A stretch of 64,000 nucleotides of DNA, taken from the NCBI RefSeq assembly GCF_027111315.2, contig NZ_CP114289.2, forward strand, positions 4,092,001 to 4,156,000, in the 5' to 3' direction. How positions within the stretch are numbered: position 1 is the stretch's first letter; every line of letters begins with the position of its first letter. Below, one piece after another: positions 46,350 through 50,214 of the stretch. Source of the DNA: Flavobacterium limnophilum (lineage in GTDB: Bacteria; Bacteroidota; Bacteroidia; Flavobacteriales; Flavobacteriaceae). The position numbers and the translations under genes were made by a program. The notes under the pieces were generated by a model, which was given only the letters and a program-made list of their open reading frames with translations, was not told the origin of the DNA and did no database searches.

Positions 46350-46526
46350 CTACTCCTTTCTGTCCGCTTTTTTAGCCCGATAATACATCCAATAGGCAAC
46401 ACCAACCAACAAAACAAAAGGGAGAAACGAACCTATGACGACTCCAATTTGATAACTGTTGTCGGGTGCGACTTTTAATTTTTCTGCAACATTCACTTGT
46501 AGTAATGGCAAGATGAGGTACATCAT
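46350..46526 (-). CDS. 58-residue single-pass membrane protein
   Basis: A short frame (ATG 46526 to TAG 46350) encoding a hydrophobic start (MMYLILPLLQVNVAEKL), a linker (KVAPDNSYQIG) and a clear TM helix (VVIGSFLPFVLLVGVAYWMYY) with a basic tail RAKKADRKE, so the C-terminus faces the cytoplasm. It begins 3 bases after the enoyl-CoA hydratase stop and precedes queD, which supports a real gene in an operon. Easily missed because of its length. Function unknown. Confidence 0.7.
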   Translation of the reverse strand: MMYLILPLLQVNVAEKLKVAPDNSYQIGVVIGSFLPFVLLVGVAYWMYYRAKKADRKE

Positions 46527-46529
46527 TGT

Positions 46530-47294
46530 TTATTTTTTAAATTGGGACAATGCTTTTTTCGAGAAATCCGAAAGCACTAATTTTCCTGAAATTTCGGCTC
46601 TTTCGTAAAGCAAAGTGTTCCAGTTTTCGGTTCCTTCCCAAAGTGTTTTTTTTATTTCGGTTAATGCCTCGGGATTGAAACCGGCCAGTTTGTTGGCGAA
46701 AGCCGCAATTTCTATATCCAATTCGGCTGAAGTTTTAAATACTTTGGCGTACAATCCTTTTTGGTTTGCCCAAGCTGCCGTTTTCCATTCCGTGTCCAAA
46801 GTCATTTCGGTCGTGGCACTTTTTCCTATTTTTCGGGTTACGGCAGGTTCTATTACAAAAGGACCAATTCCAATTGCCAATTCCGACAGTTTTATGGCAC
46901 TTTCATTCGTCGCCAAAGCATAATCGCAAGCGGCTGCAATACCTACTCCGCCACCAACTGCTTTTCCGTGAATTCTTCCGATGATTATTTTCGAACAATT
47001 GCGCATTGCATTCAATACATTGGCAAATCCGGAAAAGAATTTTGTGGCTTCGTCTAAATTTGAAACTGCCAAAAGTTCGTCAAAAGAAGCTCCGGCACAA
47101 AATGCTCCCGAACCACTGCTTTTTAAAACAATAACCGAAGCTAAATTGTTGTTACTTAGTTTGTTGAGTTCATTCGTCAATCGGTTTAATAAATCACTCG
47201 GAAAAGAATTGCTCGCAGGATGCCCAAATTCTAGGGTCGCGATTTTGTTTTCGATTGTGGTGATTAGTAAGCCGTTTGGGTTTTGAGTTGTCAT
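46530..47294 (-). CDS. Enoyl-CoA hydratase/isomerase family protein
   Basis: A 254-residue crotonase-fold protein. The oxyanion region GAFCAGASFDELL and GKAVGGGVGIAAACDYALA are present, with a Glu in SELAIGIGPFVIEPAV. The substrate is a CoA thioester, but whether it acts in fatty-acid oxidation, leucine catabolism (methylglutaconyl-CoA hydratase) or another route cannot be decided here. First gene of a probable minus-strand operon. Confidence 0.88.
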   Translation of the reverse strand: MTTQNPNGLLITTIENKIATLEFGHPASNSFPSDLLNRLTNELNKLSNNNLASVIVLKSSGSGAFCAGASFDELLAVSNLDEATKFFSGFANVLNAMRNCSKIIIGRIHGKAVGGGVGIAAACDYALATNESAIKLSELAIGIGPFVIEPAVTRKIGKSATTEMTLDTEWKTAAWANQKGLYAKVFKTSAELDIEIAAFANKLAGFNPEALTEIKKTLWEGTENWNTLLYERAEISGKLVLSDFSKKALSQFKK

Positions 47295-47354
47295 TACACA
47301 GATTTTGATGTAAAGTTAAAAATATTAAGGGAAGCAGGATATTTTTTTTAGAAA

Positions 47355-47387
47355 TTTGCATTTTACTTTATTTATGTGTTATATTTG
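47355..47387 (+). promoter_or_regulatory. Promoter of the tRNA-Ala cassette
   Basis: TTTG 47355-47358, 21-base spacer, TATATTTG 47380-47387. It lies before the 5' half-tRNA, so it would transcribe half-tRNA and tRNA-Ala together. Confidence 0.65.
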
Positions 47388-47397
47388 CGCCAGAATT

Positions 47398-47445
47398 GGG
47401 GGATTAGCTCATTTGGCTAGAGCGTCCCGATGAAATCGGGAAGGT
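47398..47445 (+). pseudogene. 5' half of a tRNA-Ala-like gene with an altered anticodon arm
   Basis: The first 27 bases (47398-47424) are identical to the intact tRNA-Ala 5' part, including acceptor strand GGGGGAT and the full D-arm. The anticodon arm is replaced by TCCCGATGAAATCGGGA (47425-47441), which still folds as 5+7+5 with loop ATGAAAT, i.e. U33 then GAA. After AGGT (47445) similarity stops: there is no T-arm or 3' acceptor strand. Confidence 0.85.
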
Positions 47446-47468
47446 AACTGTTCAAAATAAAAAATATT

Positions 47469-47542
47469 GGGGGATTAGCTCATTTGGCTAGAGCGCTTGC
47501 CTGGCAGGCAAGAGGTGGTCGGTTCGAATCCGATATTCTCCA
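47469..47542 (+). tRNA. tRNA-Ala (GGC)
   Basis: A full 74-nt cloverleaf: acceptor GGGGGAT/ATTCTCC with the G3-U70 pair that marks tRNA-Ala, D-arm GCTC/GAGC, anticodon arm CTTGC-CTGGCAG-GCAAG (anticodon GGC), T-arm GTCGG-TTCGAAT-CCGAT, discriminator A, no encoded CCA. It is the only intact tRNA in this cluster. Confidence 0.95.
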
Positions 47543-47581
47543 CAAAAGACTCAAACATTGTTTGGGTCTTTTTTATTTCTA
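47513..47581 (+). repeat. 69-bp direct repeat, copy 1 (tRNA 3' part plus terminator)
   Basis: Runs from AGGTGGTCGG in the tRNA through its 3' end and terminator to TTTCTA. The same 69 bases occur at 47858-47926. Confidence 0.9.
47546..47576 (+). terminator. Terminator of tRNA-Ala
   Basis: AAGACTCAAAC and GTTTGGGTCTT form a stem with one G-T pair, followed by T; 4 bases after the tRNA. Confidence 0.85.
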
Positions 47582-47586
47582 GTCTT

Positions 47587-47835
47587 ATGTTTTACACTTA
47601 TATCATTTATTCAAAAGCGATTGATAAATATTATGTTGGTTCTTGTCAAGATATACAAGAGCGGCTTGAAGATCATTTGAACAGCAGAAGTAAATACACC
47701 AAACAGGCTAAAGATTGGGAATTAAAGTATTTTGAGACATATTCTTCCAGAAGTGAGGCTTATCAAAGAGAAATGCAAATCAAGAAGATGAAAAGCCGAA
47801 AATATATCGAAAATTTGATAGGAAATAAGAGCTAG
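47587..47835 (+). CDS. GIY-YIG nuclease domain protein
   Basis: An 82-residue single-domain nuclease. The signature appears as YTYIIY (residues 3-8) and YYVGSCQDIQERLEDH (about 15-30), with the conserved Arg in ERLEDH and a C-terminal Glu-containing helix (SRSEAYQREMQIKKMKSRKYIENLI) like the UPF0213 group. The longer frame from 47497 reads through the tRNA (MPGRQEVVG...) and is not real. It starts 11 bases after the tRNA-Ala terminator and its TAG stop is formed by the tRNA-derived GCTAGAGCG. No promoter is obvious between terminator and ATG. Confidence 0.88.
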   Translation: MFYTYIIYSKAIDKYYVGSCQDIQERLEDHLNSRSKYTKQAKDWELKYFETYSSRSEAYQREMQIKKMKSRKYIENLIGNKS

Positions 47836-47887
47836 AGCGTCCCGATGACAATCGGGAAGGTGGTCGGTTCGAATCCGATATTCTCCA
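47831..47887 (+). pseudogene. 3' half of a tRNA-Ala-like gene with an altered anticodon arm
   Basis: It begins GCTAGAGCG, then TCCCGATGACAATCGGGA (18 bases, one longer than a normal arm, 8-base loop), then AGGTGGTCGG through the T-arm and ATTCTCC-A, identical to the intact tRNA-Ala 3' part. The 5' acceptor and most of the D-arm are missing. Confidence 0.85.
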
Positions 47888-47926
47888 CAAAAGACTCAAA
47901 CATTGTTTGGGTCTTTTTTATTTCTA
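47858..47926 (+). repeat. 69-bp direct repeat, copy 2
   Basis: Identical to 47513-47581, 345 bases downstream, beyond the GIY-YIG gene. Confidence 0.9.
47891..47921 (+). terminator. Duplicate terminator after the 3' half-tRNA
   Basis: Same hairpin as 47546-47576, carried by the 69-bp repeat; here it would end the GIY-YIG transcript. Confidence 0.85.
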
Positions 47927-48016
47927 CTATCATCAGATTCAAAATTTTTCACGTTTAAGACCTATTTGAATTCGTGCTGAAAGTATCTTCCGTTTTTTGA
48001 TTTACTTAATTTAACA

Positions 48017-48051
48017 TTTGCTCCAATATGTGTTATATTTTCATATTTTTG
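48017..48051 (+). promoter_or_regulatory. Promoter of the prolyl oligopeptidase gene
   Basis: TTTG 48017-48020, 23-base spacer, TATTTTTG 48044-48051. The first in-frame ATG (48058) is 6 bases later, the signal-peptide ATG at 48073. Confidence 0.6.
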
Positions 48052-48072
48052 CAACAAATGATAAATCTTCAA

Positions 48073-50214
48073 ATGAAAAAAACAATTTTTATTCTGGTTG
48101 TTGCAACTGTACTATCTTCGTACGGTCAAAAACAAAAAAACGTGAAATACCCACAAACAAAAAAAGGAGAAACAGTTGATCTGTATTTCGATACCAAAGT
48201 CAATGATCCGTATCGTTGGCTCGAAGACGACAAATCGGAGGAAACGGCTGCTTGGGTAAAAGCAGAAAATGAAGTGACTTATGATTATTTGTCAAAGATT
48301 CCTTTTAGAAACGAATTAAAAGACAGATTAGAAAAATTATGGAATTATGAAAAAATAGGGTCACCTTCCACCGAAGGAAACTTCTCCTATTTCTTCAAAA
48401 ATAACGGTTTGCAAAACCAATCCGTTTTGTATCGAAAAGACGCTTCCGGTAAAGAAGAACTTTTTCTGGATCCAAACACTTTTTCCAAGGATGGAACCAC
48501 TTCTTTGGGCGAAATGGATTTCTCGAAAGACGGTTCCATCTTGGCTTATTCCATTTCGGAAGGCGGTAGCGATTGGAGAAAAGTAATTATTATGGATGCC
48601 CTTTCCAAAAAAGTAGTAGAAGATACTTTGGTTGACGTAAAGTTCAGCGGATTGTCCTGGAAAGGAAACGAAGGATTTTTCTATTCCAGTTACGACAAAC
48701 CAAAAGGGAGCCAATTGTCGGCCAAAACAGACCAACACAAATTGTATTTCCATAAATTGGGAACTTCACAAAAAGAGGACAAGGTAATCTTTGGTGCAGA
48801 CCAAAAAAGAAGATACGTGGGCGGTAGCGTCACCGATGACGACAACTATTTGGTCATTACGGCCTCTGTTGCCACTTATGGAAATGAATTGTACGTCAAG
48901 GATTTAACCAATCCAAACAGTCCTTTGGTTGTCATTGTGGATAATTTCAACAGCGACAGCAATGTTATCGAGAATGATGGCACTAAATTGTACATCGAAA
49001 CCGACTGGAATGCACCCAACAAACGCATTGTTACGGTTGATGTAAGCAATCCAAAACCCGAAAATTGGAAAGATTTTATTCCTGAAACAGAAAATGTTTT
49101 GACGCCTTCCACTTGTGGTGGTTTTTTCTTTGCCAATTACATGAAAGATGCCGTTTCGGTCGTTCAACAATATGATTATTCTGGAAAACTCGTTCGCAAT
49201 ATCCAATTGCCGGGATTGGGAACAGCTACTGGTTTTAGCGGAAAGAAAACAGACAAAACAGTATATTATTCTTTTGCCAATTATATTACGCCCGGAACCA
49301 TTTATGCCTTGGAACCCCAATCCGGAAAATCGGTGATTTACGAAAAACCAAAAGTGGATTTCAAAAGTGAAGAATATGTTTCCAAACAAGTTTTTTACAC
49401 ATCGAAAGACGGAACCAAAATCCCGATGATGATTACCCACAAAAAAGGATTGAAACTTGACGGCAAGAATCCAACGATACTCTATGCTTATGGCGGTTTC
49501 AATATCAGCTTGACGCCAAGTTTCAGCATTGCCAATGCAGTTTGGTTGGAAAATGGTGGAATTTATGCCGTTGCCAACTTGCGAGGTGGTGGCGAATATG
49601 GGAAAAAATGGCATGATGCAGGAACCAAAATGCAAAAACAAAATGTGTTCGACGATTTCATCGCCGCCGCCGAATATCTAATCTCCGAAAAATATACGTC
49701 ATCCAGTTTCCTTGCCATTCGTGGCGGATCAAACGGCGGTTTGCTCGTGGGAGCCACCATGACACAACGTCCCGATTTGATGAAAGTGGCCTTGCCGGCA
49801 GTGGGTGTTTTGGATATGTTGCGTTACCATACTTTTACTTCTGGCGCAGGTTGGGCTTATGATTATGGAACTTCCCAAGACAGCAAGGAAATGTTTGAAT
49901 ACATCAAGAAATATTCCCCTGTGCACAATGTGAAAAAAGGAACGCAATATCCTGCCACGATGGTTACAACCGGCGATCATGACGATAGAGTGGTGCCGGC
50001 GCACAGTTTTAAATTTGCTGCCGAGTTGCAGGAAAAACAAAGCGGAAGCAATCCAACTTTAATCCGTATCGACGTAAAAGCAGGTCATGGTGCCGGAAAA
50101 TCGATAGCAGCCACAATTCAGGAAAATGCAGATGTCCAAGCTTTTACTCTTTATAATATGGGATTCACGGCATTGCCTAAAACTGTGATTTTGTCGTCGC
50201 CAGAGATGAAATAA
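48073..50214 (+). CDS. Prolyl oligopeptidase (S9A)
   Basis: The 713-residue enzyme cuts after proline in short peptides. Signal peptide [19 protein letters not shown] places it in the periplasm. The N-terminal segment [28 protein letters not shown] is the S9A signature; a seven-blade propeller follows, then the hydrolase domain with [11 protein letters not shown], nucleophile Ser (about residue 553) in [11 protein letters not shown], Asp in [12 protein letters not shown] and His in [12 protein letters not shown] 48073 is preferred over 48058 because it gives a clean signal peptide. Confidence 0.94.

Follow-up and report, generated by a model that had tools for sequence, protein, structure and literature searches.

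A small GIY-YIG nuclease gene, an intact tRNA gene and hairpin-bearing tRNA copies form a recurring cassette in Flavobacterium and other Bacteroidota

The DNA analysed here is a stretch of 64,000 nucleotides (nt) of Flavobacterium limnophilum (contig NZ_CP114289.2), referred to below, at its full length, as the window. At one locus within it, a gene for a small GIY-YIG nuclease and an intact tRNA-Ala gene are enclosed by two broken copies of the same tRNA. The features of this cassette are listed below, with coordinates counted from the first letter of the window.

47398..47424, + strand: 5′ half of the upstream pseudo-tRNA-Ala, nt 1-27 (27 nt), identical to the intact gene
47425..47441, + strand: upstream hairpin TCCCGATGAAATCGGGA (TCCCGAT-GAA-ATCGGGA), in place of the anticodon arm, by direct reading
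47442..47445, + strand: AGGT after the upstream hairpin
47469..47543, + strand: intact tRNA-Ala(GGC), by ARAGORN; Rfam RF00005, 60.2 bits over 47469-47542
47544..47581, + strand: terminator-like inverted repeat 3′ of the intact tRNA, copy 1, by direct reading
47587..47835, + strand: GIY-YIG nuclease gene, 82 amino acids (aa), Pfam PF01541
47831..47839, + strand: D-loop/D-stem remnant GCTAGAGCG of the downstream pseudo-tRNA, by direct reading
47840..47857, + strand: downstream hairpin TCCCGATGACAATCGGGA (TCCCGAT-GACA-ATCGGGA), in place of the anticodon arm, by direct reading
47858..47888, + strand: displaced 3′ half of tRNA-Ala, nt 45-75, identical to the intact gene
47889..47926, + strand: terminator, copy 2, 38 nt identical to 47544-47581, by direct reading

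The order of 5′ half, intact tRNA-Ala, GIY-YIG gene and 3′ half, proposed in an earlier note on this DNA, was borne out by direct reading, ARAGORN, Rfam and Pfam. An AT-rich short stretch separates the upstream hairpin from the intact tRNA-Ala (direct reading), and the last codons of the GIY-YIG gene, AGC and the stop TAG, fall within the D-loop copy that belongs to the downstream half. In both halves the 17-nt anticodon arm CTTGCCTGGCAGGCAAG (nt 28-44) has been exchanged exactly for a TCCCGAT/ATCGGGA hairpin. The earlier note had taken the pieces for two halves of one tRNA-like gene; their flanks do match the intact tRNA, but a hairpin stands in place of the anticodon arm, and the reading as plain half-tRNAs is thereby ruled out. 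The direct repeat of 30-31 base pairs (bp) that it described is present, as 30 versus 31 bases with a one-base indel in the hairpin loop. There is also an identical direct repeat of 69 bp (47513-47581 = 47858-47926), made up of tRNA nt 45-75 and the terminator. Between the tRNA pieces of this cassette no open reading frame (ORF) of at least 60 aa was found besides the GIY-YIG gene, hence no integrase gene. It had further been supposed that deletion of the interior would restore one full-length tRNA-like gene; that the result would be a useful tRNA is not supported. Joined at the hairpin (47398-47441 plus 47858-47888), the halves yield a gene of 75 nt with an Ala body, called tRNA-Phe(GAA) by ARAGORN, so that excision would not restore tRNA-Ala; with its GAA anticodon, the product of such a direct join is potentially a misreading tRNA. 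The earlier note was silent on the hairpin swap and the 69-bp repeat, as well as on the tandem arrays and the isotype-specific nuclease clades described below.

The 82-aa gene is counted from an ATG; the ORF list has a 112-aa frame that begins at an upstream TTG within the tRNA. Residues 1-73 of the protein match PF01541 (E 1e-15), and in an alignment of five such proteins (A1) the residues Y3, Y5, Y15, Y16, G18, R26, H30 and E62 are invariant in all five. The only solved sequences matched were small GIY-YIG proteins of the UPF0213 type (PDB 1ywl and 1zg2, E 5e-6 and 1e-5). Matches to homing endonucleases in PHROG were weak for the window protein (best E 7e-6), and the Arg-type and Pro-type proteins had no homing-endonuclease match there. 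The Ala-type genes have a median ratio of nonsynonymous to synonymous substitution rates (dN/dS) of 0.08, indicative of purifying selection (27 genes; 133 usable of 351 pairs, those with dS between 0.05 and 2). Group I introns with GIY-YIG genes exhibit intron-borne homing, with a site at the tRNA anticodon. The present arrangement differs in that an intact tRNA adjoins the insertion. A group I intron was rejected as an explanation: no Rfam intron family was found at 46500-48500 up to an E value of 1. The protein does share a weak match to the NCBIfam 'group I intron endonuclease' (26 bits, below the cut-off of 56).

The cassette recurs, with precise ends at the tRNA anticodon arm and an intact tRNA inside, in several isotypes and genera, which supports the earlier note in part. 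A pattern consisting of the TCCCGAT hairpin with a tRNA T-arm after it was found in 35/299 genomes of the same genus and in none with the reversed pattern as control, from which it is evident that the arrangement is more than chance. A profile made from alignment A1 found relatives of the gene in 155/299 genus genomes at E 1e-12; since A1 was built from five tRNA-linked proteins, the survey leans to that family. TCCCGAT hairpins as such were present in 290/299 genus genomes (reversed control, 0-3 per genome), and the hairpin was therefore rejected as a mark of the tRNA-linked gene alone. Two sets of loci were compiled: a genus set of 90, restricted to the better-scoring profile matches (30 + 60 chosen places), and a set from named genomes, in which A1 yielded 299 relatives, the best 80 of 299 being kept. 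De-duplicated rows underlie all counts given here on position, isotype, junctions, tree, dN/dS, identity correlation and half asymmetry.

Among distinct loci away from contig edges (4 genus and 5 named-genome rows at edges were left out), 68/86 genus loci and 61/75 named-genome loci have an ARAGORN tRNA on the same strand, no more than 150 bp 5′ of the GIY-YIG gene; the median distance is 59-60 bp. A further 11 and 5 loci, respectively, have a tRNA within 500 bp, and 7 and 9 have none so near. For one of the 68 loci and three of the 61, the ARAGORN call next to the gene falls on a hairpin-bearing copy. The isotypes represented are Ala, Val, Asp, Arg, Pro, Asn, Lys, Met and, once, Leu. Named carriers comprise Flavobacterium, Dokdonia, Flavivirga, Flagellimonas, Gillisia, Seonamhaeicola, Pedobacter, Taibaiella and Chitinophagaceae; among metagenome-assembled genomes, Petrimonas, Paludibacter, Prolixibacteraceae, Bacteroidales and Cloacimonadota were found. 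Some loci (L150, L182, L185, L199 and L208, among others) display the tRNA-gene order only, with no broken copy seen. By a strict count, tandem GIY-YIG copies occur in 14/90 genus loci and 8/80 named-genome loci; a looser count (18/90 and 12/80) took in frameshift-split genes (L090, L176) and partial copies.

Several side observations may be recorded. A record whose title names it as the complete genome of Glaciecola amylolytica, a gammaproteobacterium (CP034120.1), carries a tRNA-Val cassette with a hairpin-broken copy (L228, 2366-2810), possibly an interphylum transfer. Locus L030 (G075:C4 603421-606457) contains four pseudo-tRNA units at a spacing of about 128 bp, and no GIY-YIG gene was found in its 3-kb stretch. 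At L188, L201, L215, L221 and L222 only a 3′ tRNA fragment precedes the GIY-YIG gene, no intact tRNA being called upstream in the stretch; these are possibly further rearranged cassettes. ARAGORN reads hairpin-broken pseudo-tRNAs as Ile(tat), Lys(ttt), Phe(aaa), Gly(tcc) or undetermined; miscalls of this type, which are false extra tRNAs in annotation, were seen at L009 (2053-2130), L030, L031, L034, L038 and L045.

The position of the hairpin was determined in the downstream tails, tails cut short by a contig end being left out. It is flanked on both sides by tRNA-matching sequence in 100/146 distinct tails. The isotype, junction and tree sets exclude rows at contig ends, rows without a nearby assigned tRNA and those labelled '?', 'Stop', 'Ile' or 'Phe', which are mostly pseudo-tRNAs. 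The anticodon arm is exchanged base-to-base, at junction 27|45 for Ala (33/37), Arg (10/11) and Met (2/2) and at junction 28|46 for Pro (6/6). The 30 Val junctions are 28|46 in 9 cases and 28|45 in 19, and 28/30 fall within one base of the anticodon arm. The type of hairpin tracks the isotype lineage: TTCCGAT in 19/30 Val, TCTCGTC in 6/7 Asp, and TCCCG in 37/37 Ala (TCCCGA in 35) and 9/11 Arg.

The halves retained are those that face outward. In upstream copies of tRNA-Ala the 5′ 25 nt are exact in 46/59 and the 3′ 26 nt in 0/59; in downstream copies the 3′ 26 nt are exact in 15/29 and the 5′ 25 nt in 0/29 (an ungapped count on copies pre-selected to have one half recognisable, with at most 6 or 8 mismatches). 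Pairs from one locus show an exact match between the 3′ part and the intact tRNA in 16/31 cases, compared with 25% of random between-locus pairs. These data bear on the suggestion that the broken tRNAs are functional RNAs, for example decoys for tRNA-cutting toxins or tRNA regulators. The terminators kept by the downstream copies would fit such a role, as would the length of some arrays (seven upstream broken copies in L184). It is nevertheless very unlikely, given that the retained halves differ between the two sides, that little or nothing of the 5′ acceptor strand remains in the downstream copies, and that the anticodon arm, which anticodon-cutting toxins recognise, is gone. The PADLOC library, moreover, gave no match for the three GIY-YIG proteins tested, and a defence gene was rejected on the same result.

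The genome of F. limnophilum itself contains 15 Pfam GIY-YIG matches, seven of them in a single tandem array at tRNA-Arg(TCT). There, an intact tRNA and a terminator are followed by seven 374-bp units, 99% alike, each consisting of a GIY-YIG gene, a 5′-truncated tRNA-Arg with a hairpin for its anticodon arm, and a terminator. Small GIY-YIG genes are also found away from tRNAs, at four loci (five genes, L010-L013); one of these, a 969-bp duplication, accounts for two of the genes. Each locus falls within a cluster of a dispersed palindrome-type repeat particular to it, as follows.

G000:C1 153262-155829: non-tRNA GIY-YIG locus, 11/21 of the genome's repeat sites in the cluster
G000:C1 292285-293005: non-tRNA GIY-YIG locus, 7/18 of the genome's repeat sites in the cluster
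G000:C1 168856-169968: non-tRNA GIY-YIG locus, 7/41 of the genome's repeat sites in the cluster
G000:C1 1773674-1776714: non-tRNA GIY-YIG locus, 12/33 of the genome's repeat sites in the cluster

At four other loci (L014, L017, L026 and L027) the TCCCGAT hairpin has taken the place of the inner part of a different palindromic repeat (gttcgagtg - hairpin - tgtatcgagaac), much as it has in the tRNAs. At L018 and L024 the same hairpin looks like part of a transcription terminator.

These loci raise an alternative, modelled on the REP/RAYT systems, in which a single-gene nuclease/transposase stands beside palindromic repeats (PMC3116915, PMC2817692). The partnership would be between the GIY-YIG protein and a palindrome, the nuclease acting on the hairpin as an extruded cruciform or single strand; hairpins would be exchanged with other stem-loops, and tRNA genes, whose arms are natural hairpins, would have become the carrier repeat of one branch. 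In comparison with those systems, a GIY-YIG protein replaces the Y1 transposase here, and the repeat is tRNA-derived. The alternative draws on all four non-tRNA loci, on the hairpin found within a second palindromic repeat, on the match between hairpin type and isotype lineage (Val, Asp, Ala, Arg), and on the small UPF0213 proteins as closest solved relatives. It must be considered, however, that the repeat patterns were picked from sequence beside each GIY-YIG gene, without a random-gene control; that the 41-site family has a bigger cluster (10/41, 1490575-1491182) with no GIY-YIG match there; that TCCCGAT hairpins occur in far more genomes than have a gene match; and that such a partnership alone does not account for broken copies that keep exactly the outward tRNA halves. 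On balance, it is possible but doubtful. A combined form is also tentative, although slightly less so: the small GIY-YIG proteins of Bacteroidota could be a second, hitherto unrecognised counterpart of RAYTs, with lineage-own hairpins that swap with stem-loops, and one branch could have become an isotype-specific tRNA element with a working tRNA and uncuttable half-tRNA arms.

A comparison of occupied and empty sites, as the earlier note had suggested for relatives, was possible at the tRNA-Ala locus. In genome G112 (L240) a syntenic empty site holds one plain tRNA-Ala and its terminator. The two flanking genes are those of the window; from a reading of their sequence, one is of the enoyl-CoA-hydratase type (74% identical) and the other of the prolyl-oligopeptidase type (77%). 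L238 and L244 have the same two neighbours as L240, with the cassette present. In both, an L240-like terminator follows the displaced 3′ half, at the position of 47889-47926 in the window, and another terminator and the GIY-YIG gene precede that half. The two terminators of a locus are clearly different in L238, less so in L244 and identical in the window. An upstream 5′ half with hairpin is present in L238 as well; several loci, L244 for example, have the downstream copy only, so that the two halves are not always found together. At L032 and L054, among others, an upstream hairpin copy is present and the GIY-YIG gene absent, as expected of remnants. The possibility of an assembly error, which the packing of 27-69 bp repeats into a short space might invite, can be set aside almost entirely: the structure is present in independent assemblies, including single-contig chromosomes (G103, G288, G096, NZ_CP058246.1 at L161, CP128386.1 at L186 and CP034120.1 at L228).

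A tree of 136 GIY-YIG proteins requires 12 changes of tRNA isotype (minimum 8), compared with 71-82 in 100 label shuffles; the alignment is short, many forks are unresolved and long branches meet. This result is pertinent to a passive origin, in which a tRNA was duplicated in tandem and decayed, the hairpins were inserted by a separate mobile system, such as a Y1/REP transposase, and the GIY-YIG gene was only a passenger. Y1_Tnp genes were indeed found in 23 of the 40 genomes searched, this genome included, and tRNA pseudogenes and terminators were duplicated together. Such an origin is nonetheless improbable: the same architecture is found at several isotypes with isotype-specific nuclease clades, the gene is under purifying selection, the arm is exchanged at the same position in different tRNAs, and genomes G004, G011 and G012 have 15, 12 and 22 TCCCGAT hairpins with no Y1_Tnp match. 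(G016 and G020, also with no Y1_Tnp match, have 2 hairpins each.) On the evidence of the three genomes with 12-22 hairpins, a RAYT was rejected as a necessary mover of the hairpin; its past action is still compatible with the data.

The closest functional precedent is SegB of phage T6, a free-standing GIY-YIG homing endonuclease that cuts within tRNA genes (Chihara et al. 2026, PMC13096335). According to that study, a cut motif, RAWTSGAAC, is present in 23/83 sites; a 718-bp unit of tRNA-Tyr and segB is amplified in tandem only if SegB is available; and recombination may be guided by microhomology shared by the 5′ end of the tRNA and the 3′ end of segB. By our own reading of the letters, the motif would be the reverse complement of the T-loop. 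The resemblance extends to the catalytic type, the free-standing gene beside tRNA genes, the tandem amplification of tRNA plus nuclease, and the joint between tRNA 5′ end and nuclease 3′ end, the stop codon here overlapping the copied 5′ part of the tRNA. The cassettes differ in being chromosomal and mainly from Bacteroidota, in the 82-aa size and in the hairpin-broken half-tRNAs; their lineages are bound to single isotypes, whereas no favoured isotype is reported for SegB (PMC13096335). A word search of that paper did not find the term 'pseudo-tRNA'. By sequence the cassette gene does not group with a SegB family, since phages gave no match at E 1e-5, PHROG weak ones and viral contigs three distant ones. 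As a separate observation, a 210-kb viral contig (L299) encodes a distantly related protein (35% identity), and a tRNA array lies some 1.1 kb downstream of its gene, a SegB-like context.

Other known elements are less similar. Those with tyrosine integrases that enter tRNA genes (integrative and conjugative elements, prophages) leave the tRNA intact, with a displaced 3′ part at the far end. Both properties are found in the cassette, but it has no integrase, nearly the whole tRNA is copied, a hairpin has been exchanged, and the enzyme is a GIY-YIG nuclease and not a recombinase. The catalytic residues, the location outside any intron or intein and the syntenic empty alleles expected of free-standing GIY-YIG homing genes are all found here; a separate DNA-binding part is not. 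To our knowledge, hairpin-swapped pseudo-tRNAs have been reported from no family. The cassette would thus appear, by function, to resemble the free-standing homing genes of tRNA loci, with the hairpin-swapped pseudo-tRNAs setting it apart. The earlier note knew of no description of the arrangement. For bacterial chromosomes this still stands, in that no account was found among the top-ranked results of the open-licence literature (most subscription papers fall outside that scope), and the three tRNA passages located by word search in a 2006 paper on GIY-YIG phylogenomics (PMC1564403) include none on tRNA-linked genes; SegB (PMC13096335) is nevertheless a close precedent in function.

Taken as a whole, the results incline us, by a modest degree, to regard the cassette as a chromosomal selfish parasite of tRNA genes, with a free-standing, homing-like GIY-YIG nuclease, each lineage of which would be specialised on one isotype. 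In the mechanism envisaged, the nuclease would break the tRNA gene at or near the exchanged arm. The half-tRNAs would serve as homology arms, the 5′ half pairing with the left broken end and the 3′ half with the right, and repair would copy everything between the arms, including the intact tRNA that keeps the host alive. By removing the target, the hairpin would render the half-tRNA arms uncuttable. Tandem arrays might arise by slippage between repeated 3′ halves. A SegB-like target in the T-loop would survive in most broken copies, which keep that loop in spite of the hairpin; under this mechanism the nuclease would need to recognise the exchanged arm.

Several observations weigh against this interpretation. 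In Asp (38|51, 4/7) and Asn (45|51, 4/6) the hairpin is not at the anticodon arm: it follows the anticodon loop or sits within the variable loop. Some copies bear it in the T-loop or D-loop. The hairpin test was failed by 46/146 tails, which include mutated stems, hairpins placed elsewhere, degenerate tails and tails with no recognisable tRNA. Known homing GIY-YIG enzymes carry a separate DNA-binding part; in the 82-aa protein the GIY-YIG domain alone fills the chain and there is no such part. Phage and plasmid collections yielded no match at E 1e-5 (phages by tblastn) and viral contigs just three distant ones, and carriage by phages or plasmids was accordingly rejected. The identity of GIY-YIG proteins is correlated with that of flanking genes (r = 0.64; 31 loci, 465 pairs), which indicates that much of the inheritance is vertical; L178 departs from this, as its identity to several loci is about 0.9 in the flanks and about 0.68 in the GIY-YIG, suggestive of replacement. 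The interpretation is weakest with regard to self-cutting. Genomes with and without the cassette carry an identical intact tRNA, and occupied (49) and empty (65) tRNA-Ala loci have their five most frequent types of anticodon arm in common; the latter number is no unbiased rate, since sampling was directed mainly at loci where a cassette had not yet been seen. A recoded rescue tRNA is thus not supported: the carrier's tRNA is unaltered, so no recoded, cut-proof tRNA protects it. The authors of the SegB study raise the akin question of how SegB spares its own genome (PMC13096335).

If the interpretation is correct, essential tRNA genes would be host to a selfish nuclease widespread in a bacterial phylum, and tRNA-linked amplification of the SegB type would extend to chromosomes. 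It would explain the recurring tRNA pseudogenes, some of them read by ARAGORN as extra Lys, Ile, Gly or Phe tRNAs, together with the tandem GIY-YIG arrays, and it would make it possible to test whether small GIY-YIG proteins with no DNA-binding domain move palindromic hairpins.
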